Source of the DNA: Bdellovibrionales bacterium
GTDB taxonomy: Bacteria > Bdellovibrionota > Bdellovibrionia > Bdellovibrionales > Bdellovibrionaceae
Length of the DNA stretch: 64,000 nt
Assembly: GCA_018266295.1 (NCBI GenBank)
Contig: JAFEAQ010000006.1
Coordinates: forward strand, 310,001-374,000
Reading direction: 5' to 3'
Part shown: positions 10,548 through 24,289 of the stretch, piece after piece
Position numbering within the stretch: the first letter of the stretch is position 1
How the letters are laid out: each line of letters opens with the position of its first letter
Program-made: the position numbers and the translations under genes
The notes under the pieces: model-generated
Seen by the model: the letters and a program-made list of their open reading frames with translations, nothing else
Databases searched by the model: none
Told to the model about the DNA's origin: nothing

Positions 10548-10667
10548 CCTTTTTGAAAAAGATCCCTTAAGAATTAAATGGTTGAAGTCGATAAGAGATC
10601 GGCGTACAAACAGCACAACTGTTGAAATTCTAAATCGGCTATAATGTCTAAGCTTCGAGGTGGTTGC

Positions 10668-12050
10668 ATGGACTCTGAAAATAAAAACCTCAGTCAGGAA
10701 AACGCGGAAGCCACTGCTTCCTCGTCTCACAAAGAACTGACTCAGACTGAAGAGCAATTCTTCAACCTGTTTGAGAACTGGTCGGCTTTATCGACCTCCG
10801 AGCGCCGGGAAAAATTCAAAGAATTGCCGCGGACTGAAGCCGAGGAACTCTTCCTCAGCCTTAAAACCCATGACCAAGTAGAATTGCTCGAAGAGGCCAC
10901 TCCTCTTGAGAAACGCTCGTGGGTTCGCTTGCTTGCTCCCGATGACGTGGCCGATTTGATCCAGGAAATGGGTTCAGAACACCGTGATGCGGTTCTGGGG
11001 CTGCTCGATCCACAAACTAAGCGCGAAGTGATCGCGCTCTTGGCCTATGCAGAAGACAATGCCGGGGGCTTGATGAGCTCGCGCTTTATTCGTCTGCGCC
11101 CTGACATGAGCGTGGATGAGGCTATTAGCTACATCCGCATTCAAGCCAAAACCCAGGTTGAGACCATTTACTATGCCTACGTTCTAGCTGCCGACCAAAC
11201 GCTGTTAGGCGTTGTCTCATTCCGGGAATTGTTTGCTTCGACTCCAGAGAAAAAGATTAAAGACATCATGACTACGGATATGGTGCGCGTCCTCGTTGAT
11301 ACGGACCAAGAGCAAATCGCAAAGCTCTTCTCCAGCCATGATCTGATGGCCGTGCCGGTTGTCGATGCGGGCGACCACATGGTCGGTATCGTAACTTTCG
11401 ATGACGTGGCCAGCGTTCTTCAAGAAGAAGCGACCGAAGATATCCATAAGCTGGGTGCGGTTGAAACTCTCGATGCTCCTTATTTGAAAATCTCTTTGGT
11501 TGAAATGATTAAAAAGCGCGCCGGTTGGTTGCTGGTTCTCTTCTTGGGTGAAATGTTCACGGCAACGGCGATGGGTTATTTCCAATCGGAAATTGAGCGC
11601 GCAGTGGTGTTAGCGTTATTCATTCCGCTGATTATTAGCTCTGGTGGTAACTCCGGTTCGCAAGCTTCGACATTGATCATCCGTGCGATGGCCCTTGGCG
11701 AGGTTCGTCTGCGTGACTGGTGGCGCGTTTTGGGCCGCGAGATTTTAACGGGCTTGGCGTTGGGCTGCTGCCTGGGCGCCGTTGGTTTGACTCGTATTTT
11801 ACTTTGGCCCTCGAAAGAACAGCTTTACGGCCCCCATTACTTCCTTGTCGCTCTGACTGTGGCTGGAAGTATCGTCGGCGTTGTGCTTTGGGGTTCGCTC
11901 TCAGGATCGATGCTTCCGTTCTTGCTGAAGAAAATGCGCTTTGACCCGGCCTCTGCTTCGGCTCCAGCCGTTGCAACTCTGGTGGACGTGACTGGTTTGA
12001 TTATTTACTTCTCGGTTGCCAGCATGATTCTCCATGGAGTTCTACTGTAA
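10668..12050 (+). CDS. mgtE: Magnesium transporter MgtE
   Basis: Magnesium (and cobalt) channel of the inner membrane. Domain order matches the family: an acidic, helical N domain (about 30-130), paired CBS domains (about 130-255) that sense cytosolic Mg, a connecting helix, then five membrane helices with the pore motif SSGGNSGSQASTLIIRAMA. Length about 460 is normal. ATG 10668 is used because GAGGTGG precedes it by 6 bases; an earlier ATG at 10644 lacks this. The stop overlaps the start of the next gene by one base (TAATG), so the two are translationally coupled. Confidence 0.93.
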   Translation: MDSENKNLSQENAEATASSSHKELTQTEEQFFNLFENWSALSTSERREKFKELPRTEAEELFLSLKTHDQVELLEEATPLEKRSWVRLLAPDDVADLIQEMGSEHRDAVLGLLDPQTKREVIALLAYAEDNAGGLMSSRFIRLRPDMSVDEAISYIRIQAKTQVETIYYAYVLAADQTLLGVVSFRELFASTPEKKIKDIMTTDMVRVLVDTDQEQIAKLFSSHDLMAVPVVDAGDHMVGIVTFDDVASVLQEEATEDIHKLGAVETLDAPYLKISLVEMIKKRAGWLLVLFLGEMFTATAMGYFQSEIERAVVLALFIPLIISSGGNSGSQASTLIIRAMALGEVRLRDWWRVLGREILTGLALGCCLGAVGLTRILLWPSKEQLYGPHYFLVALTVAGSIVGVVLWGSLSGSMLPFLLKKMRFDPASASAPAVATLVDVTGLIIYFSVASMILHGVLL

Positions 12051-12924: not shown

Positions 12925-13440
12925 TCAAAGTACGTTCTTCGGCAGATGTTTATGTGAGCTTTTGGCTTTCTTTTTTCTCACGAACAGTCCGCGTCCTTCT
13001 AAATCGTTGAGTTCGTGATACTTGATCACAGTTTTAAACTGCTTTCCCCAGGATAAAATCTTAGTAAAGGGGCGAAGGTCAAAAAGGCCTTTTAAGGATT
13101 TTCCTTTTAGCTTTGAAAGTAGGCTTACAAGAAGTGATGTGATGGTTCTGATAAATGCTAAATAAGCTTCACGCGATGGAAGTTTAATCAGCAAATGAAT
13201 GTGTGACCAGTTAAGTGAAATCTCGTAGAGCTTTATCCCATACTTTTCTGCATGAGATTTTATCAAAGACTCAATTTTTCTATTCCCAAGAGCAAAACAA
13301 GAACTCCCAGTACTTTTTAAAATGAGATGAATAGGATTTTTTACTGATAGAGGTCTTGCAGTTTTTCGTTTGCCAGCAAGTAAGCTTCCGCCAAATTCTT
13401 TTTTATAATCTTTGATAAAACCAAAGCCCGTCTGTCTCAT
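12925..13440 (-). CDS. RAYT (REP-associated Y1 tyrosine transposase, IS200/IS605 superfamily)
   Basis: A single-strand DNA transposase of the HUH/Y1 class. The metal-binding HUH motif is His80-Ile-His82 in NWSHIHLLIKL, and Tyr141 in KTVIKYHEL is the candidate nucleophile. Length 171 is a little longer than TnpA of IS200 and fits the RAYT group, which mobilises REP palindromes rather than itself. The gene is richer in A and T than the genes on both sides, lacks any partner such as tnpB, and lies between inverted repeats and palindromes (12784-12877 and 13508-13556). It reads toward the pseudouridine synthase gene. It is intact as far as can be seen. Confidence 0.85.
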   Translation of the reverse strand: MRQTGFGFIKDYKKEFGGSLLAGKRKTARPLSVKNPIHLILKSTGSSCFALGNRKIESLIKSHAEKYGIKLYEISLNWSHIHLLIKLPSREAYLAFIRTITSLLVSLLSKLKGKSLKGLFDLRPFTKILSWGKQFKTVIKYHELNDLEGRGLFVRKKKAKSSHKHLPKNVL

Positions 13441-13942: not shown

Positions 13943-15289
13943 TTACCAGATGTTGTATTTGTAGTTGCTCTTACCTGTGTTGTACTTGTACGGATTTTTT
14001 GTGTTGTACTTGCCACCGTTGTTGTTTTGTTGTTGGTTGCAGTCGCTGTAGTTCCACTTGTAGCACCATTTGCCACCTTTGTACTGCCAGCAGTTCTTCC
14101 ACCAGTGAAGTGGGCGGCATTTGCGGTGATTGTGGTGGTGACCGTGGCACTTCGCTTTACCCTTCAAGCAGTAGTCGATCACGACTGTTGCACCTGCAGG
14201 GATCGGGCTAGTGACTGTGACTACGTTACCTTCGATTGTGAACGTTGCAGCGACGCCGTTAACAGTTACTTTTACAGTGCTTGGATCCACATTATCGTGA
14301 GTCAATTCGAACTGAGTCTGGATTGAAGAACCTTGACCAGCCAACTCCGCGATGGAAGCCAAACCGTCAGAGATATCATCGTGAGCGATGTCGATTGCAA
14401 CACCTGGGCTCAAAGCTACCATGTCGATGTAACCGTAACCGATTTCTTTACCTGCTGGAGCCGGAGAATCAACATAAGTGATTGCAGAAACTTGCAAGTC
14501 TTGTGAACCCTTCAACACATGCAGACGATTTGTCAAACCTGCAGCCGTCAAACCTTCACAGTCACGGATGCGAGCGTCGATTTTAACTGGATCTGTTTCA
14601 GCTGGAACACCTGCTGGGATTGCAGCACAGATGTCACGGCGGTCCCCGATGAACACAACTCCAAGAGCAGCGTCAGCGCGGAAGAAACCAAGACCTTGTG
14701 ATTCAGAAAGCAATGCTGGAGTCGTGATACCGTTGAAGAGTGAGAACATGCCCTCTTCACCGCCACCAGAATCTGGATCAGCAACTACTTGAGTCAGCTT
14801 TTGAGACAAGTAAGTTTGGATGTCAGCATTAGACAATTCAGAAGATTTCAAAACGATGGGCTCAGAAGCTGCGCGGTACAAGCGGCCTGACCAGCTTGAA
14901 GTGCTACCGTGTGAAAGCATCACAGCGATATTAAAGTCAGCTGTTGGCGGCAATGTTTGAACGAAAGCATCAATTTCTGAAGCGATGAAGGCTCTTTGTT
15001 CAGCGATAGAGTCTGAAGTTTGAAGTACGAAAAGAACGTCTACTTTACCAGTAGGGTTTGAAGCTACTGTATAAGTGTCTGTGAAACATTTCTCTGAATT
15101 CTGCTTGCAAGTGTGTTTGATTCTGCTGCTAACAGTTTTCGTTTCGCTAACGACTCCTGCGACGCTGGCGTCATCAATGACTTGTGTGGATTGAGCGTCT
15201 GAACCGCCCTTTGCGCAACCGATCATGCTTAAAGCAAAACCGATGATCATGAATACATTTGAAAGTCCGAAGCTTTGTGTGCCTCTCAT
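13943..15289 (-). CDS. Lipoprotein with degenerate vWA-like domain and Cys/His/Trp/Tyr-rich tail
   Basis: 448 residues from ATG 15289, which follows GGAGG at 7 bases. A lipobox (SMIGC) ends the signal peptide. From about residue 85 a von Willebrand A-like fold is suggested by VDVLFVLQTSDSIAE, but the metal-site motif DxSxS reads QTSDS, so the first Asp is missing. A beta domain follows (about 320-375, ending VVIDYCLKG). The last 67 residues are low-complexity and full of Cys, His, Trp, Tyr, Asn and Lys, with blocks such as CHGHHHNHRKC and NYKYNIW. The order (vWA region, then a small beta domain ending near ..DY) matches the C-terminus of the larger lipoprotein upstream, so the two look paralogous. 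Function unknown, presumably at the cell surface or in the periplasm. Confidence 0.8.
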   Translation of the reverse strand: MRGTQSFGLSNVFMIIGFALSMIGCAKGGSDAQSTQVIDDASVAGVVSETKTVSSRIKHTCKQNSEKCFTDTYTVASNPTGKVDVLFVLQTSDSIAEQRAFIASEIDAFVQTLPPTADFNIAVMLSHGSTSSWSGRLYRAASEPIVLKSSELSNADIQTYLSQKLTQVVADPDSGGGEEGMFSLFNGITTPALLSESQGLGFFRADAALGVVFIGDRRDICAAIPAGVPAETDPVKIDARIRDCEGLTAAGLTNRLHVLKGSQDLQVSAITYVDSPAPAGKEIGYGYIDMVALSPGVAIDIAHDDISDGLASIAELAGQGSSIQTQFELTHDNVDPSTVKVTVNGVAATFTIEGNVVTVTSPIPAGATVVIDYCLKGKAKCHGHHHNHRKCRPLHWWKNCWQYKGGKWCYKWNYSDCNQQQNNNGGKYNTKNPYKYNTGKSNYKYNIW

Positions 15290-15527
15290 TTTTGGCCTCC
15301 TACCGTTACTAACCGTTACGATAGAAGTACAGAGCAAGGGGGGTGCCACCGGGACATTCCGGGCGCTTTCCAGCTTAATTCCACATAAAGTTGCTTACTT
15401 TGTCTAAACAAATGACAACTGCCGGGCCAAAAACGGTTTTTCCCGGTAGCAGTGACGAATATAGGTATGTCTCAGAGTGAGAACGGGCCCCTGGAGAGAT
15501 CCAAAGCCCGCCTCTATATATTAGGTA

Positions 15528-18500
15528 TTAGTATTGGTAGTCGACTTTGATCTCTGTGCCCACTGAAGGAGGCGCATCGAATACGACCTTATTGCCAATG
15601 ACTGTATAACCGATCGTTTGAGCTGGTGTGAAAGTCACCTGAACGGAGCCAGCCACCGGCGTATGAGCGAGCTCCACGGAGTTTGTAAGCGTTCTTACGC
15701 TCTCCCCGATGCTCTTAAGCGTTACAGAGTAGTCCGGCGCACAGATACTTGTGCTGAAACCACCCGTGAGGTTCACCGTCTGGTCGATCAAATCGCCGTA
15801 GAAGCTGAAACCACCGCTGCCGACTCGCATTGTATCAAGACAAGTCGAATCGCCTGGTTTCACGATAATGCTATAAACCTTCAACTTTTTGCCAGTAGTG
15901 CCCCAGTTGTTATTAAACGCAGATACCAACTGAGCCGGACGGTCTTTATAAGTCGCACCACCCGTTTGTCTTTCATCGGCGTCACTGAGAATCACGATGG
16001 CAAGATCCGAATCCTGACGGAAGAATCCGTTATTATCTGAGTTGAACTTATTCATGGCCGTCGTCGCAGAAAGTAACGGTTCACTCGCACCCGATGGGCA
16101 AGTCCCTGTATTCAAGCAACCCGCAGTCTCTGGACGCTGGATCGAGTTGTTAAACACAGTGCTGTAGTTCGGTACTGACGGAGTCAAAATCTTGCTATTG
16201 AAACCAGTCATTGTCAGCAATGAACCGCAGATACCGTAAGGACCTGTACTGCAATCCGTTGTCGTAATACCGATCTGCCAATCGATGGATTTCAACTCTG
16301 TTGCAAAGCCTGAGAACTTCGTACCCAATGAAGCCTGCTTAGGATCCATTGAAGCCGAGTTATCATCGATGAACAAGATATCGATCTTACCGAAAGAAGC
16401 GTCACTGATGAATGTTTCAGAAGCACCATCAGATTCACGTCTATAAGTCGCAGTCACTTGACCGACGTTACCCGCAGCGTCTGTTTGTTTCGCTGTGATA
16501 GACTTCGTGCCAAGTCCGGCTGTGAAAGTCACCCCAATTGAGAACGCACCCGCCGTACAAGCGCCGCTGGTGCTTGTGATGTCGCCAGTGAGAGAGACTG
16601 TCAGACCCGTTTCGCAAGTTCCTTTCAAAGTCACTGCAATTGGAACTGCAGTGCCTGGAACTGGATCAGTGATAGTGATAACAGGCGCTGCAGTATCGCG
16701 CATAAAGCTGCGAGAGGCTTGACCCACGTTACCGGCAGCGTCTGTTTGAGTTGCTGTGACTACTTTAGCGCCGTCGCCTGAAGACGCGCTGACGTTTGCA
16801 GAGTATGCACTGCTTGTACAAGCCACTGTCACTGGGCTTGCAAGGCCGGCACCAGCCAACACAACGTTGAAACCCGTTTCACAAGCACCTTGAACTACGA
16901 AGCTTGCGCCCACATAGCTGTTAGCCGCTGGTGAAGTGATTGTGACGATTGGTGGATCTATATCACGAACAAAGTTACGTGAACTTGTACCAACGTTGCC
17001 AACAGCATCCGTTTGAGTTGCTGTGACCGCTTTAGTGCCGCTACCCGCAGTGAATAGGATATCACCTGCGAAGACACCGCTCGCGCAAGCCACCACAACA
17101 GGAGTCGCAACACCTGAGCCCGCAAGTGTCACGTTCAAGCCCGTTTCACAAGTACCACTGACATTGAGACCGTCTTTAGCCACAGTGCCTTCAGCGGGAG
17201 CTGTGATCGCCACTGCTGGAGGAGTCGCATCTTTATTATAGTTACCAGTCACTTGAGTGCTGTTCCCCGCACCGTCTGTCTCAGTCACAACAACTGTTTT
17301 AGCACCGTCGTTGTCGCTGAAAGTGATGGTTGAAGAGTAAGTCCCGTTCACACAAGTCGTCGAAGACGCACTTGCAACGCCAGAGCCTGAGAAATTCACA
17401 GTCAGACCTGTTTCACATGTACCAGTAATCGTAAGACCTGTACGGCCGGTAGTTCCGTTAGCTGGGTTTGTGATAGTCAATACTGGGGGTGTTGTATCAC
17501 GGAGATATGTTTTAGAAGCTGTCGCTGTATTACCGGCGCCATCTGTCTGCTTCGCAGTGACTACTTTCGTGCCGTCGCCATTAGAAACAGTCACGTTGGC
17601 AGAGTATGAACCAGAAGGACATGTCACGGTCACTTCAGCCGCAAGACCCGCACCGCCAACAACGACATTTAAACCCGTTTCACAAGCACCTTGAACTGTG
17701 AAGTTCGTTGGCAAGTATGTATTTGCCGCAGGCGAAGTGATTGTCACTGTTGGTGGAGTTGTATCGCTCACGAAAGTTCTAGAATCAGAACCCGTGTTAC
17801 CTGCCAAGTCAGTTTGTGAAGCCGTCACTGGTTTATTACCGCTGCCCGTGCTGAACACGATCGAAGCTGCGAAAGTACCTTGAGCAGAGCATGGAGTCAC
17901 AACATTTGCTGAAACCCCTGTTCCTGACAGGGTCACATTCAAGCCCGCTTCACAAGTACCGGCTACATCAAGACCTGATTGGCCTGTTGTGCCTGCATCT
18001 GGCGAAGTGAATTTCACCACTGGAGGTGTTGAGTCACGCAAATAAGAGCCATCCGCTGTCGAAACGTTGCCAGCAGCATCCACTTCTTTTGCATTTACTG
18101 CCTTAGCACCGTCACCGGCACTCAAAGCAAGAGTGATTGTATAAGTACCGCCCGAGCTACAAACCACAGAACCTGCATTGGCAATGCCTGCGCCCGTGAA
18201 ATTGATAGTCAGACCCGCCTCACACGCACCTGTCAAAGTCACAGAGGTATTGACAATCGTGCCGTTGGCCGGAGAAGCAATAGTCAATTTTGGCGGCAAT
18301 GTATCGCGCAAGAATGTGCGTGATGTAGAACCGGTGTTACCGGCAGCATCCGTTTGCGATGCGATGACCTCTTTGTTGCCATCAAGCGGAGAAGTCGTCA
18401 CCATTGCAGAGAATGTACCCGCAGCACAAGTCGCCGTCGCTGTCGGCAAGATTCCGCCGCCAGAGAGCTGAACCATCAGACCCGCTTCACAAGTCCCAGT

Positions 18501-19772
18501 GACTGTGAAAGAAGAGCCCACATAAGTACCGGCAGCCGGGCTTGTGAAAGCCAACACCGGAGCGATTGTATCAACCATGTAATTTTGGTTTGCAGTACCG
18601 ACGTTACCGGCAGCATCTGTTTGAGTTGCGACAAGAGTCTTAGTCCCTTGACCTGAAGTGATTGCTGTTGTCAGAGTCCAAGCACCGCTTGAGCAAGCCA
18701 CTGTTTTAGCGGCACTCAAGACAGAGCCAGACAAGACCACGTTAATACCTGTTTCACACGCTCCAGAGAAGGTGCTGTTTGCAGGCAAGTAAGCATTTGC
18801 CAAAGGTGAAGTGATTGTCACTTTTGGAGCGATTGTATCTTTGATTGTATTTTTGGAATCAAGACCGAAATTGCCGGCAAGGTCGACTTGGTAAACTTGG
18901 AGTTTTACCGGACCATCCGCACCCGGCATAGGAATGCTGGCTGTGAAGGTTCCATTTGTACAAGGCACATCCGGAGCAAGGCCTGAACGGAACTCCCCGA
19001 GTCCCACTGGCAAACCGGATTCACAAGTACCGGAAACGGTCATAGCAGAAAGATTTGTAATTGCAGGAATTGCAGAGGTGATTTTAACAGCTGGCGGAGT
19101 TGTATCAATGCTCATCGCTGTTGAATCTTTACCTTGGTTACCGGCGCGGTCGATTTGGCCGGCGATGATGTCTTTAGTACCATCGCCGCTGCTTGTTTGA
19201 ATTGTGGCGCTGAATTGACCGTTTTCACAGTCCGTAGAAATTGGAGTTACGATACCAGGACCATAAATCAAAACAGGCAAACCTGTTTCACAAGTTCCGT
19301 TGATGACAGAGGTCACAACGTTGGTCGCTAAAGAAGAAGCGCCGTTAGTGATTTTAACTGCTGGAGGTGTTGTATCTTTTTGAACGCAAAGACGGTCGAC
19401 AACATCTGTTCCATCGCTTGCAGTTTTCTGAGTTACTACGAGGTCTTTTTGACCATCACCGCTTGAAAGCGTGTAAGTCGTTGAGAAACTACCGGCATTA
19501 CAAGCCACCGTTGTTGGGGCACCTTCCATGCCCTCTTTAATATCTACCGGAACGCCAGTTACACAGCTACCTGTGACAACAACTGTATTGGTCGCAACTG
19601 TATCAATGGTTGGATAAAGAATGATAGGACCATCATTCAACCCGAACTTCGCTGAAGTATCTGGAGCTTTACAGGCGACATCCTGCCCAAGGAAAGTGAG
19701 TTTAGAGCACGCCGTTGTCGTCATCAAAGCTGTTAAGCCAAAAAGTAGCGTGAGTGTTTTAATTTGAACCAT
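15528..19772 (-). CDS. Giant lipoprotein: 12 Ig-like repeats plus C-terminal vWA domain
   Basis: 1414 residues. A signal peptide ends in a lipobox-like TTAC. Residues about 40-1115 are 12 tandem repeats of about 85-95 residues, each beginning with a pattern like PPxVTITSP, carrying G-[TA]-C-E-[TS]-G-L and a second Cys about 25 residues later, and ending AGNxxxxxxxxxxDTTPP. This resembles bacterial Ig-like adhesin modules. The last 287 residues hold a von Willebrand A-like domain with an intact DxSxS metal motif (Asp1137 in IDDNSASMD) and ILSDADER. Such proteins are usually surface adhesins or stalks that present a binding head. No anchor other than the lipid is seen. Downstream (15289) lies a smaller relative. 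The gene is AT-poor like its neighbours, so recent transfer is not suggested. Confidence 0.88.
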   Translation of the reverse strand: MVQIKTLTLLFGLTALMTTTACSKLTFLGQDVACKAPDTSAKFGLNDGPIILYPTIDTVATNTVVVTGSCVTGVPVDIKEGMEGAPTTVACNAGSFSTTYTLSSGDGQKDLVVTQKTASDGTDVVDRLCVQKDTTPPAVKITNGASSLATNVVTSVINGTCETGLPVLIYGPGIVTPISTDCENGQFSATIQTSSGDGTKDIIAGQIDRAGNQGKDSTAMSIDTTPPAVKITSAIPAITNLSAMTVSGTCESGLPVGLGEFRSGLAPDVPCTNGTFTASIPMPGADGPVKLQVYQVDLAGNFGLDSKNTIKDTIAPKVTITSPLANAYLPANSTFSGACETGINVVLSGSVLSAAKTVACSSGAWTLTTAITSGQGTKTLVATQTDAAGNVGTANQNYMVDTIAPVLAFTSPAAGTYVGSSFTVTGTCEAGLMVQLSGGGILPTATATCAAGTFSAMVTTSPLDGNKEVIASQTDAAGNTGSTSRTFLRDTLPPKLTIASPANGTIVNTSVTLTGACEAGLTINFTGAGIANAGSVVCSSGGTYTITLALSAGDGAKAVNAKEVDAAGNVSTADGSYLRDSTPPVVKFTSPDAGTTGQSGLDVAGTCEAGLNVTLSGTGVSANVVTPCSAQGTFAASIVFSTGSGNKPVTASQTDLAGNTGSDSRTFVSDTTPPTVTITSPAANTYLPTNFTVQGACETGLNVVVGGAGLAAEVTVTCPSGSYSANVTVSNGDGTKVVTAKQTDGAGNTATASKTYLRDTTPPVLTITNPANGTTGRTGLTITGTCETGLTVNFSGSGVASASSTTCVNGTYSSTITFSDNDGAKTVVVTETDGAGNSTQVTGNYNKDATPPAVAITAPAEGTVAKDGLNVSGTCETGLNVTLAGSGVATPVVVACASGVFAGDILFTAGSGTKAVTATQTDAVGNVGTSSRNFVRDIDPPIVTITSPAANSYVGASFVVQGACETGFNVVLAGAGLASPVTVACTSSAYSANVSASSGDGAKVVTATQTDAAGNVGQASRSFMRDTAAPVITITDPVPGTAVPIAVTLKGTCETGLTVSLTGDITSTSGACTAGAFSIGVTFTAGLGTKSITAKQTDAAGNVGQVTATYRRESDGASETFISDASFGKIDILFIDDNSASMDPKQASLGTKFSGFATELKSIDWQIGITTTDCSTGPYGICGSLLTMTGFNSKILTPSVPNYSTVFNNSIQRPETAGCLNTGTCPSGASEPLLSATTAMNKFNSDNNGFFRQDSDLAIVILSDADERQTGGATYKDRPAQLVSAFNNNWGTTGKKLKVYSIIVKPGDSTCLDTMRVGSGGFSFYGDLIDQTVNLTGGFSTSICAPDYSVTLKSIGESVRTLTNSVELAHTPVAGSVQVTFTPAQTIGYTVIGNKVVFDAPPSVGTEIKVDYQY
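16430..19655 (-). repeat. Tandem coding repeats, 12 copies of about 270 bp
   Basis: In-frame repeats encoding the Ig-like modules of the 1414-residue lipoprotein. Copies differ by many substitutions at the protein level, yet blocks such as GTCETGLTV and DAAGN recur closely. Boundaries are approximate. Confidence 0.8.
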
Positions 19773-20153: not shown

Positions 20154-20185
20154 AAAAAAACCGGAGTCTTTCGACTCCGGTTTTT
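20154..20185. terminator. Bidirectional rho-independent terminator
   Basis: CCGGAGTC (20161-20168), loop TTTC, GACTCCGG (20173-20180), flanked by an A run on the left and a T run on the right, so it can work on both strands. On the minus strand it ends the protease-PilZ gene, whose stop lies at 20217. Confidence 0.88.
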
Positions 20186-20216: not shown

Positions 20217-22109
20217 TTATACCTTCATCAAACCTGCAGTCCATTTCTGGATCATAGCCAGAGTTGACTGCTCGGCACCCGCGAACTGAACCCCGTAAGA
20301 CTGGTTCGCTTCGCTCCACACGACTTGACCTGTGACCTCGACGAGATCTCGGCCATCTGGGCTTGCGATCTTCATAGTGATAATTCCGCCTTTTTCGAGG
20401 GCCTCGTCGGCACTGAACGACGCACCACCGAGGGAGATCGTTTTGAGTGAACCGGAAAGCTCGCGGTCTCCGACCATGAGTCGGATGTCGGAATCCATTT
20501 TGAAGCGCTCGAACTTACGACGGCCTGCTGGATCTGCCGCTTTTTGTTTTTCCATCGCGCGCTGTCTGAGAACAGTCCACACGATCAATGGAATCATCAG
20601 CAAGCCCGCAAGAATGCCGGCGCCGCTGAAGCCGTCTTTATTATTGCCCGGGCCCTTCAACAAAGCCGTTGAAACCATCCCGCAACCCGCTTTAGGCGGA
20701 GTCGCTTCCGACGCTAGACCACGGGCATCGGCTTGGTAAACCGGAGAATAATCCGGCTGACTTGCCTGCACATTGGCTTGAGCTTTGGCCTCAACGATGA
20801 GGTTGTAAGAGTTAATGCGAGCTGAAGTCGAAACTTTTCCAAGCAAGCTTGAAATCGCGGTCGCCTTCGCCAGCATGATGTCTTTAATTTGATAGCCCGT
20901 GAGGAACGGAGCCTCGCGCATGGCAAGAGCTGCCATCCCCGCGACAAATGGAGTTGCCATACTTGTACCGGACATAGTGCCCGTACGGTTATTCGGCAAT
21001 GTACTCAAGATCAAAACCCCTGGGCTGGCAATTTGGACTGAGCGAGAACCGAAGTTTGAGAAGCTTGCCAAGTAGTCATAATCCGTGGTCGCAGCCACAG
21101 ATACGTTTGAAGGAACGTCATAGTTTGCCGGATACATCGAAACAGAATCGTTGTTCTTGCCGTTATTACCCGCCGCTGTTGCAATGAACATACGGTTTGA
21201 GTAAGCAAAAGTCAGAGCTTCATGGAGGGCGCGGCTATAAGACGAACCACCCCAAGAGTTGTTGATCACGCGCGCACCGTTATTCACGGCATAGTAAATC
21301 GCGCGGATGGCATTTGAAGTGGTGCCCGAGCCGTTTGCATCGAGGAATTTCAAAGGCATGATGCGCATTTTCGCAGTTTCGGTAATTGTCGGCGCGAAGA
21401 TATTGAGACTCGTTCCAACGATAATACCAGCCACGTGGGTACCATGACCGTCGTCATCATAGAAGTCCGGCGAATTGCTGATGAAATTCCAGCCGTTGAT
21501 GTCATCGATATAACCGTTATAGTCGTCGTCTACGCCGTTCAAAGCTTCGCGAGTATTCACCCACAATGCATTTGAGTTCTGGAACACCGGATGATTCTTA
21601 TCAAGGCCCGTATCGACGATTGCTACGATCGGACGGTAGGTTGACGAAGACGATTCGATGGCCCAAGCTTCAGCAACTTTCGTTTGAGCGCCGTTTTGAG
21701 AATAGCTCGTCGACGAAGCCGACACTTGATCTAACGCTTGAACTTCACCGGCTTCGTAAACCTTGTCAGGGGCACCGAGGCCCGCACGGTCATCGAAGTC
21801 TGATTTCTTAAAGACAAAGTTAGGCTCAATATACTCAACATCTGGATCGTTTGAGAGCTCCTCAATCGAAGTCGTATCTCCCGTTCCGCCCTTCAACGAG
21901 ATATGAACCATGTTCATCTGCGGAAAGGAGCCCTTCATGTTGATTTTATTAGAGACCTTATTGAGTGCACCCGAGGGCGCCGCCATCGGTTTGAACTTCA
22001 CGATATACTCTCCCGGGACCGCTTCCGGACCAGAAGATTGGGCATTGGCCATAGAAAGGCCGACAAAAAACGCAAATATCGTTGTAAGCATTGCCGAATG
22101 ACTATCCAC
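20217..22109 (-). CDS. Subtilisin-like (S8) serine protease fused through a membrane helix to a PilZ domain
   Basis: 630 residues from GTG 22109 (GGGAG five bases upstream). Order: signal peptide (1-23), I9-like propeptide (about 30-100, EYIVKF... to VEYIEPNF), S8 protease with Asp166 (AIVDTG), His222 (GHGTHVAG), Asn315 (AAGNNG) and Ser383 (GTSMATP), a linker with two Cys near 476, one membrane helix (about 496-514), a basic stop-transfer segment, then a PilZ domain (about 529-615). PilZ shows RKFER (Arg531, Arg535), the RxxxR cyclic-di-GMP motif, and TISLGG in place of [D/N]xSxxG. The protease should face the periplasm and PilZ the cytosol. The GCG...helix...basic pattern also recalls MYXO-CTERM-like sorting tails, but those end right after the basic residues. 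Confidence 0.9.
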   Translation of the reverse strand: MDSHSAMLTTIFAFFVGLSMANAQSSGPEAVPGEYIVKFKPMAAPSGALNKVSNKINMKGSFPQMNMVHISLKGGTGDTTSIEELSNDPDVEYIEPNFVFKKSDFDDRAGLGAPDKVYEAGEVQALDQVSASSTSYSQNGAQTKVAEAWAIESSSSTYRPIVAIVDTGLDKNHPVFQNSNALWVNTREALNGVDDDYNGYIDDINGWNFISNSPDFYDDDGHGTHVAGIIVGTSLNIFAPTITETAKMRIMPLKFLDANGSGTTSNAIRAIYYAVNNGARVINNSWGGSSYSRALHEALTFAYSNRMFIATAAGNNGKNNDSVSMYPANYDVPSNVSVAATTDYDYLASFSNFGSRSVQIASPGVLILSTLPNNRTGTMSGTSMATPFVAGMAALAMREAPFLTGYQIKDIMLAKATAISSLLGKVSTSARINSYNLIVEAKAQANVQASQPDYSPVYQADARGLASEATPPKAGCGMVSTALLKGPGNNKDGFSGAGILAGLLMIPLIVWTVLRQRAMEKQKAADPAGRRKFERFKMDSDIRLMVGDRELSGSLKTISLGGASFSADEALEKGGIITMKIASPDGRDLVEVTGQVVWSEANQSYGVQFAGAEQSTLAMIQKWTAGLMKV

Positions 22110-22277
22110 TCATGCTCCCTTGATGATAGATATTTATCGGACAATGGTCGGGAGGGCTTTAGGGCCTTTTAGCCTCAAACTGGGATGGGTGTGGAAATCT
22201 CAAAATGTTTACCTATGTCCACACCAATTCGCTTTGAGCTACCAATCAAAATGAGACTCTAATAGAATGGTTTCAAT

Positions 22278-22889
22278 ATGAATCACTTCCTCAAAACACT
22301 CCGTCAGATCTTCCTTAAGGGTCTTTTCACCTTCTTGCCTATCGCCGTCACGATTTACATCATCTACGCCGGTATTGTGATCATGGAAAGCATGCTGGGC
22401 ACAACCATCCAGCGCTTCTTCCCGTCTCTGTATGTTCCAGGGATTGGTTTGTTACTCACGATTGTGTTTATTTTCCTGTTGGGTCTTCTGCTTAACAATA
22501 TCCTGACAGCCAGCTTCTTCGGAAATATTGAAAGACAGCTGATGAAGGTGCCCTTTATTAAGGCGATCTACTCTCCGCTCAAGGACGTGATGAACTTGTT
22601 CTCGCATAATGGCTCTAAAGAAATGAAGAGCGTTGTGCTGGTCGATGTCGGCGACATCAAGATGCTGGGGCTTGTAACCCGCGATGACTTTAGCGATATT
22701 CAAGTCAACGGCCATCTGAATGACCGCGTGGCGGTGTTTGTTCCGCTCAGCTACGGCTTGGGTGGTTACACGATGCTGGTGTCGCGTTCAAAGATCACTG
22801 AAATCGATATGCCGGCGGAAAAGGCCATGAGCCTCGCCATCACTGGTTGGGTGAAAGTCGCCCACAAACATGACGGAGAATCTCGATGA
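22278..22889 (+). CDS. DUF502 family inner-membrane protein
   Basis: 203 residues with two membrane helices in the first 80 residues (FLPIAVTIYIIYAGIVI and GIGLLLTIVFIFLLGLL) and a soluble domain with IKAIYSPLKDVMNLF and VFVPLSYGLGGYTMLVSRSK, the conserved blocks of DUF502. The family is widespread and of unknown function. Its stop overlaps the start of the next gene by four bases (ATGA type), so the two are co-translated. Confidence 0.85.
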   Translation: MNHFLKTLRQIFLKGLFTFLPIAVTIYIIYAGIVIMESMLGTTIQRFFPSLYVPGIGLLLTIVFIFLLGLLLNNILTASFFGNIERQLMKVPFIKAIYSPLKDVMNLFSHNGSKEMKSVVLVDVGDIKMLGLVTRDDFSDIQVNGHLNDRVAVFVPLSYGLGGYTMLVSRSKITEIDMPAEKAMSLAITGWVKVAHKHDGESR

Positions 22890-24289
22890 GTGAACCGGTA
22901 ATGACAACTCTGAATAAGGCCCATCGAATTAACCTGAATCCAGCGATCTACGGAACCTTTGCTGAGATCGGTGCCGGCCAAGAAGTGGCAAGACACTTTT
23001 TCGTTGCCGGGAAAGCTTCTCAGACTGTTGCCAAAACTATTTCCGCTTACGACATGACTTTCAGTGATGAGATCTATGGCCGTGAAAAGCATGGCCGTTA
23101 TGTTTGCGAATCCCGTCTCGAAAAAATGCTGGGCCACGAGTACTCCCTTCTGGTCGAGCGTTTGAGTTCGAAGCGCGGCCCGCAAACTCAGTTCTTTGCT
23201 TTTGCCAATACCGTGGCGACCGGCTCTGCCAATGACAATAAAAAATACTGCCATGGCTGGATGGGAGTCCGTTTCCAGAAACGCCCCCAAGGACCTTTCT
23301 GCGACATCATCCTGCATGTTCGCATGCAAGACCGTCATCGCCTGCAACAACAAGAGGCCCTCGGTATTTTGGGTGTCAACTTAGTCGATGCGGCTTTCTA
23401 TCATTCTGACAATGCTGAAGAGTTCATTCCTTGCCTCGTTGATAACCTCAAAGAAGGCCAGATCATCATCGATGTTTTGCGCTTCCATGGTGATGACCTC
23501 AAACACTTCAATCCGCACCTCATGAACTTGGAACTTGTTCACCGCGGACTTTCTGAAGCGGTTCTCTTCGGCCCGAATAAAGAGATCCTGCACGTCTCGG
23601 ATGCCACTTACAAAAAAGCTCTGCTTATTCAGCGCGGGACCTACCGCCCTGTCACGAAGACTCACATTGATGTTCTTAGCAAGGGCCTGATCCACTTTAA
23701 AAAAGACTTCAACCTCAAAGACGATCAGTGCCTCTCCGTGATGGAACTGACAATGAGAAATCTGCAACAGTCCGACGGCGAAGTGGATACCAAAGACTTC
23801 TTAGACCGCATCGAAACTCTGTGCAGCTTAGGGCAGCACGTTTTGGTTTCTAACTTCTTCTATTTTTATTCGCTTAAGACGTTTATCCGTCAGTACTCCC
23901 AGGAACCTATGGCGATCGTGATTGGCGCCTCTCACTTAGACCGCGTCTTTGATGAGGCCCGCTACAAAAATCTTCAGGGCGGTATCCTTGAAGGCCTTGG
24001 TAAGCTCTTGGATGCCAATACGAAGCTCTACGTCTATCCACACAAGACGGATATCACTTGCATGACAGCAAAGAGCTTCTTCCCTGCTCCGGCATTAAGA
24101 CATATCTACACGCATTTCAAAGACAGCGGTCAGGTTTGCGATATCGCAGGCTGTGATGAGACTGAGGTGTACACCCACTCGGATCAGGTGCACGAAATGA
24201 TCCTCAAAAAAAATCCCCAGTGGGAGACTCTAGTTCCAACTGGGGTCCGGGATCTTATTCGTACCAAAAAATTATTTGGATACTTGTAA
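22886..24289 (+). CDS. Conserved soluble protein of unknown function, coupled to DUF502 gene
   Basis: 467 residues, no signal peptide or membrane helix, so cytosolic. The N-terminal block LNPAIYGTFAEIGAGQEVA is very well formed and, as far as I recall, belongs to a widely conserved family whose database names vary and are not reliable. Other visible features are GVNLVDAAFYHSDN, QRGTYRPVTKTH and a hydrophobic strand MAIVIGASHLDRVFDEARY. No nucleotide-binding or metal motif is evident. It overlaps the upstream DUF502 gene by four bases. I do not assign a function. Confidence 0.75.
   Translation: MSEPVMTTLNKAHRINLNPAIYGTFAEIGAGQEVARHFFVAGKASQTVAKTISAYDMTFSDEIYGREKHGRYVCESRLEKMLGHEYSLLVERLSSKRGPQTQFFAFANTVATGSANDNKKYCHGWMGVRFQKRPQGPFCDIILHVRMQDRHRLQQQEALGILGVNLVDAAFYHSDNAEEFIPCLVDNLKEGQIIIDVLRFHGDDLKHFNPHLMNLELVHRGLSEAVLFGPNKEILHVSDATYKKALLIQRGTYRPVTKTHIDVLSKGLIHFKKDFNLKDDQCLSVMELTMRNLQQSDGEVDTKDFLDRIETLCSLGQHVLVSNFFYFYSLKTFIRQYSQEPMAIVIGASHLDRVFDEARYKNLQGGILEGLGKLLDANTKLYVYPHKTDITCMTAKSFFPAPALRHIYTHFKDSGQVCDIAGCDETEVYTHSDQVHEMILKKNPQWETLVPTGVRDLIRTKKLFGYL

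Follow-up and report, generated by a model that had tools for sequence, protein, structure and literature searches.

A Bdellovibrionales subtilase with a predicted cytosolic PilZ domain behind a probable MYXO-CTERM-like membrane signal

Described systems closest to the protein

The pairing of a subtilase with a PilZ domain has been on record since a 2008 survey listed Subt-PilZ of B. bacteriovorus HD100 (NP_969350.1) and counted PilZ among the co-domains whose function was unknown or indeterminate (PMC2605481). That entry has the same domain pair and lineage as the protein described here and, judged by architecture and not by sequence, is very probably its orthologue. The survey lists Subt-PilZ only; the topology, the distribution, the relation to other proteins and the sorting-type signal, which we call the GCG signal, are not described there. 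An earlier note on this DNA took the architecture not to be a described system; it had in fact been listed, though without a function. The literature that we searched, which included few subscription journals, contained neither a functional study of the S8-PilZ protein nor any account of the GCG signal in the order.

Other described systems resemble parts of the protein. In LapD-LapG, intracellular cyclic-di-GMP (c-di-GMP) governs proteolysis outside the inner membrane, as may be the case here, but the receptor LapD is separate from the protease LapG, whereas the S8-PilZ protein carries sensor (PilZ) and protease (S8) in one chain (PMC3032545, PMC3032553). MYXO-CTERM signals consist of an invariant-Cys motif, a helix and basic residues; they are cut by myxosortase, and the pathway uses type II secretion (PMC11980579). 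GlyGly-CTERM, the signal of the rhombosortase system, is likewise a three-part C-terminal signal on secreted proteases (PMC3237569).

Gene, domains and distribution

The window that we analysed is a stretch of 64,000 nucleotides from a Bdellovibrionales genome, and all of its features with coordinates below on which a strand is given lie on the minus strand. The gene at 20217-22109 (-) is read from a GTG start at 22109 to 20217 as one uninterrupted frame of 630 amino acids, in the order S8 subtilase, GCG signal, membrane helix and PilZ. By reading the sequence, we place a likely ribosome-binding site, AGGGAG, at 22115-22120 (-), which leaves 5 bases to the GTG; an unscored inspection by eye also picked out, 3' of the stop codon at 20154-20180 (-), a hairpin and T run that resemble an intrinsic terminator. 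As judged from its sequence, the product is predicted to be an exported subtilase of the S8 family in which the triad is complete, with a single membrane helix and a genuine PilZ domain. The fusion is no accident of assembly or frame, since the frame is single and the same architecture is kept throughout the order.

The earlier note had read this chain as a signal peptide, an I9 propeptide, a complete S8 triad, a membrane helix and a PilZ-type domain with RxxxR, with the protease outside and PilZ inside. The predicted export leader, residues 1-23 (MDSHSAMLTTIFAFFVGLSMANA before Q; 22041-22109 (-)), is plausible and has comparable counterparts in orthologues, though it is atypical in having an n-region without Lys or Arg ahead of the hydrophobic stretch. 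The propeptide has to be renamed: I9 scores 15.1 in Pfam, below its cut-off of 21.2, and the prodomain (residues 21-97; 21819-22049 (-)) passes instead as Fervidolysin_NPro-like PF22148 (33.9 bits, cut-off 21). Pfam matches both PF00082 and PF07238 in the one chain, as proposed. The Peptidase_S8 catalytic domain covers residues 160-417 (20859-21632 (-); PF00082, E 4.4e-52), and its triad is where the note had placed it, at Asp166 (21612-21614 (-)), His222 (21444-21446 (-)) and Ser383 (SGTSMA; 20961-20963 (-)). In an alignment of 46 homologues (43 distinct sequences), these residues are invariant, as are the oxyanion Asn315, Gly475-Cys476-Gly477, Pro507 within the helix (20589-20591 (-)), and Arg531, Arg535, Gly561 and Gly562 of the PilZ domain.

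The membrane helix between S8 and PilZ is likewise borne out, at residues 492-516 (20562-20636 (-)), by hydropathy, in which this is the sole stretch besides the leader hydrophobic enough for a membrane helix, and by an AlphaFold2 helix. The mean net charge of the 15 residues past the helix is +3.5, against +0.3 before it, and the flanking charge is higher on the inside than on the outside in 39 of 43 sequences. Because positive charge is greater after the helix than before it, the C-terminus is predicted to be cytosolic, and the single helix with its flanking charge thus predicts the same topology as the earlier note, protease outside and PilZ inside. From 35 sequences, AlphaFold2 gives good models of the helix and of PilZ (mean pLDDT 87); in the full chain, the region 457-505 falls below a pLDDT of 50, and the S8 part is poor (mean pLDDT 56), so that the S8 model supports no claim here. 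The linker from S8 to the helix is 50-70 residues long, variable and predicted to be disordered.

The PilZ assignment is strong. PF07238 matches residues 530-624 (20238-20522 (-)) at E 2e-17 (63.8 bits; cut-off 22.5), and among the 13 PilZ matches of its own genome the protein ranks first. Both Arg residues of the RxxxR motif (20505-20519 (-)) stand where the earlier note had placed them and are kept in 46 of 46 sequences. The second motif, which has the form [D/N]xSxxG, reads TISLGG in this protein (residues 557-562; 20424-20441 (-)), with Thr replacing Asp/Asn; the concern that the earlier note raised over Thr557 is fair, and Thr or Ser is the family norm at that position (T in 30, S in 13, D in 2 and N in 1 of the 46, i.e., Asp/Asn in 3 and Thr/Ser in 43). 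Ser559 is present in 45 of the 46. For the PilZ model, Foldseek ranks the c-di-GMP-bound PilZ domain of Alg44 first among PDB entries (4rt0_A; E 8.7e-7, probability 1.00, TM 0.72 by target length). Alg44 (PDB 4rt0, 4xrn) is also a membrane protein with a cytosolic PilZ domain; it serves alginate synthesis and, unlike the S8-PilZ protein, is not known to have a protease or a sorting-type signal. Because the contact residues (the Arg pair, Ser and Gly) are conserved, the sequence supports a working receptor, and the PilZ domain most likely binds c-di-GMP, perhaps with low affinity because Asp/Asn is usually Thr or Ser. It is improbable that PilZ no longer binds the ligand and persists as a structural or partner-binding relic: the replacement at position 557 would fit such a loss, but the retention of Arg531, Arg535, Ser559, Gly561 and Gly562 across the order and a closest fold that is a c-di-GMP-bound PilZ speak against it.

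The architecture is a feature of the order. When 84,980 species genomes were scanned with a pattern, full-length S8-helix-PilZ relatives turned up in Bdellovibrionales, among them B. bacteriovorus kdesi (43-53% identity over the best segment), and the remaining kept matches comprised the S8 part alone. A profile covering signal, helix and PilZ, the C-terminal part of the chain, found one full-length copy per genome in 35 of the order's 37 sampled genomes, one of these copies (in G111) having an internal stop; the two genomes without it were G027 and G136. The same profile gave ordinary PilZ matches only, and no full-length S8-PilZ protein, in the 107 genomes sampled from the rest of the phylum. 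In a tree of S8 domains, from which L160 and L184 were left out by the trimming rule, the S8-PilZ proteins form a single clade (branch 100/100) that also includes two PilZ-less members, L035 and L185. Both chains end directly after the signal, and L185 comes from G027, one of the two genomes without the PilZ form. L035 (1467-2930) and the PilZ-bearing L040 (5980-7845) lie in the same Pseudobdellovibrio genome bin, which makes them a natural comparison pair.

Gene neighbourhood is kept only locally. Beside the protease gene, conservation of MgtE (10644-12050) and of the genes at 8.0-10.5 kb and 22278-24289 is confined to one family and does not extend to L029, L031 and L034; no operon partner was found. 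Adjoining the protease gene in the window is a 1414-amino-acid exported protein (15528-19772 (-)) with Ig-like repeats in tandem and, at its C-terminal end, a von Willebrand A-like stretch containing a DxSxS-like motif, FIDDNSASMD, which is reminiscent of the Bdellovibrio MIDAS adhesins (PMC11003981). Beside it lies a 468-amino-acid exported protein (13943-15349 (-)) that has a VWA-like stretch of similar kind and whose tail is rich in His, Lys, Asn and Gly. The window also holds an ORF resembling REP-associated tyrosine transposases, with the motif HIHLLIKLP (12925-13440 (-)); a similar ORF adjoins a CPBP gene in L114 (2181-2783).

A three-part signal shared with other exported proteins

A highly conserved stretch that the earlier note had not picked out lies in the linker. 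Residues 475-479, Gly-Cys-Gly-Met-Val (20673-20687 (-)), have a mean conservation of 0.88, compared with 0.65 for the S8 domain and 0.57 for PilZ, and the linker falls to 0.46 on one side of them and 0.30 on the other. The signal has three parts: the GCG just outside the helix in the variable linker, the helix with its invariant Pro, and a basic tail. The window protein has no Cys other than Cys476, and in 22 of the 46 sequences this residue is the sole mature Cys, so it has no conserved disulfide partner.

The same signal was first spotted at the C-terminus of a 251-amino-acid matrixin in the window's genome (L109) and of the PilZ-less S8 protein L035, and further carriers were collected by profile searches in 40 relatives. 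A profile trained solely on the S8-PilZ signals (Z set to 4000) matches an LPMO-like protein (L145, E 7.5e-9), L035 (2.6e-8), proteins of the matrixin type (L146, 1e-6; L109, 4e-6; L148, 7e-6; also L177, L181, L182, L186 and L187), a C25 peptidase (L178, 4e-4), a Gly-rich protein (L179) and the S8 proteins L184 and L185, with E-values that are guides only because the targets had been pre-selected by earlier, partly overlapping profiles. In all of these carriers, the signal lies 1-15 residues from the C-terminus (at the very end in, e.g., L109, L145, L146, L178, L035 and L185), whereas in the window protein about 115 residues of linker and PilZ follow the helix. By eye, L158, L160 and L189 have the same layout. 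Few carriers were seen per genome, with at least one other, the matrixin, in the window's genome. As a genome-wide motif, GCG[LMIFV]V was rejected: its DNA pattern has 10 matches in the protein's own genome, compared with 18 for the reversed control. The short motif by itself thus shows no enrichment, and what is informative is the arrangement of all three parts.

L178 (3-1853, in G028) is the end of a 3539-amino-acid frame, a C25 peptidase of gingipain/PorU-like type with GCG, helix and basic residues at its C-terminus. L145 (1035-1820, in G035), which is LPMO-like (SCE4755 family, 57.5 bits, below cut-off), has the same C-terminal signal. L189 (677-1228, in G029) is a 184-amino-acid protein with a CLLCH haem-type motif and an Asp-rich repeat that ends in GGGGGGCGMI, a helix and basic residues.

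How does this signal compare with those already described? Since the same three parts end unrelated exported proteins of the order, the helix of the S8-PilZ protein is probably part of a MYXO-CTERM-like sorting or anchoring signal with PilZ added behind. The layout of invariant-Cys motif, helix and basic cluster is that of MYXO-CTERM, and the GCG signal shares with the MYXO-CTERM/MrtX system an invariant Cys outside, basic cytosolic residues and a place on exported proteins; in contrast to MYXO-CTERM, PilZ follows the S8-PilZ signal, its helix has an invariant Pro, and myxosortase is not conserved in the order (PMC11980579). No myxosortase, rhombosortase or exosortase conserved above cut-off, and thus no known processing enzyme of these kinds, was found in the 40 relatives: the myxosortase core NF040914 matches in 7 of the 40 and never over its cut-off, rhombosortase TIGR03902 exceeds its cut-off in none, and exosortase PF09721 is found in none. 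The window's genome encodes one CPBP protein, a weak myxosortase match. The NCBIfam sorting-signal models gave no match at E up to 10 or up to 1, in a search whose HMMER filters may lose short models. By anatomy, the GCG signal looks like MYXO-CTERM, yet, with neither an NCBIfam match nor a conserved sorting enzyme over cut-off, we do not class it as such. A type II secretin, which is part of the exit route for MYXO-CTERM and GlyGly-CTERM proteins, is present in all 40 relatives. Rhomboid family proteins are too, which adds to the likeness to GlyGly-CTERM but is uninformative, because they also occur in all 14 controls. Unlike GlyGly-CTERM, the signal is Cys-centred, and none of the rhomboids passes the rhombosortase cut-off (PMC3237569).

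Readings of the architecture and what they would mean

From the sequence, we think it more likely that c-di-GMP affects retention, sorting or release than that it switches the active site directly. A zymogen subtilase would cross the inner membrane and be retained in it by GCG, Pro-containing helix and basic residues, with PilZ, most likely able to bind c-di-GMP, fused to the inner end of the signal. Some enzyme may recognise the signal, which would perhaps be lipidated at the Cys and/or cut near the GCG, and c-di-GMP on PilZ would control retention, sorting or release, or the membrane site of that step. The second messenger would then determine the time and place of delivery of the protease instead of switching its active site. 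Control of anchoring, sorting or release is indicated because GCG, helix and basic residues are common to unrelated exported proteins. That the protease is held by a MYXO-CTERM-like signal and that c-di-GMP acts on this holding through PilZ is a reading whose chances we consider evenly balanced; the more specific proposal, in which the receptor sits in the cytosolic tail of a processed Cys-based sorting signal and c-di-GMP gates cutting, lipidation or export, is tentative.

Several alternatives have to be set against this. One serious rival, polar docking, has the protein stay anchored while PilZ positions it through a c-di-GMP-dependent polar partner, so that proteolysis takes place at prey contact or at the flagellar pole. 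PilZ domains frequently act through protein-protein docking, and a single helix with a conserved PilZ domain would suit this, but docking does not by itself account for the GCG motif, and no partner gene is kept next to the S8-PilZ gene outside one family; we think it unlikely. A plain membrane anchor, in which the conserved Cys is lipidated or redox-active and nothing is cut, would agree with the lack of a conserved known sorting enzyme in the order and with the small number of carriers per genome. It is nonetheless somewhat doubtful, given that the conserved three-part layout, and its position so close to the C-terminus of unrelated exported enzymes, are those of processed signals like MYXO-CTERM (PMC11980579). 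Direct switching was the proposal of the earlier note: c-di-GMP inside would act on the protease outside through the helix, for example if dimerisation exposed or obstructed the active site. The fusion of sensor and protease and the conserved PilZ contact residues are in its favour, and LapD-LapG provides a precedent for inside-out control of a periplasmic protease by c-di-GMP (PMC3032545, PMC3032553). However, the switch must work through one helix and a linker that, being variable and disordered over 50-70 residues, is a poor relay, and it leaves unexplained both the invariant GCG and its presence in PilZ-less proteins. Direct switching is thus quite unlikely.

Control of retention, sorting or release, the reading that we prefer, is worth testing because c-di-GMP controls Bdellovibrio predation (PMC3271064). 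The pilZ genes Bd2524, Bd2545 and Bd3100, which may or may not include the S8-PilZ gene, fall on leaving the attack phase (PMC2797640). If the reading is right, the order, which has no recognised sorting enzyme for such a signal, would possess a previously undescribed type of C-terminal sorting signal that contains a Cys, and the S8-PilZ protein would be the first case of a sorting signal with its own regulator. It would also connect c-di-GMP, the messenger that governs prey invasion in Bdellovibrio, directly with the step at which an exported protease is delivered.
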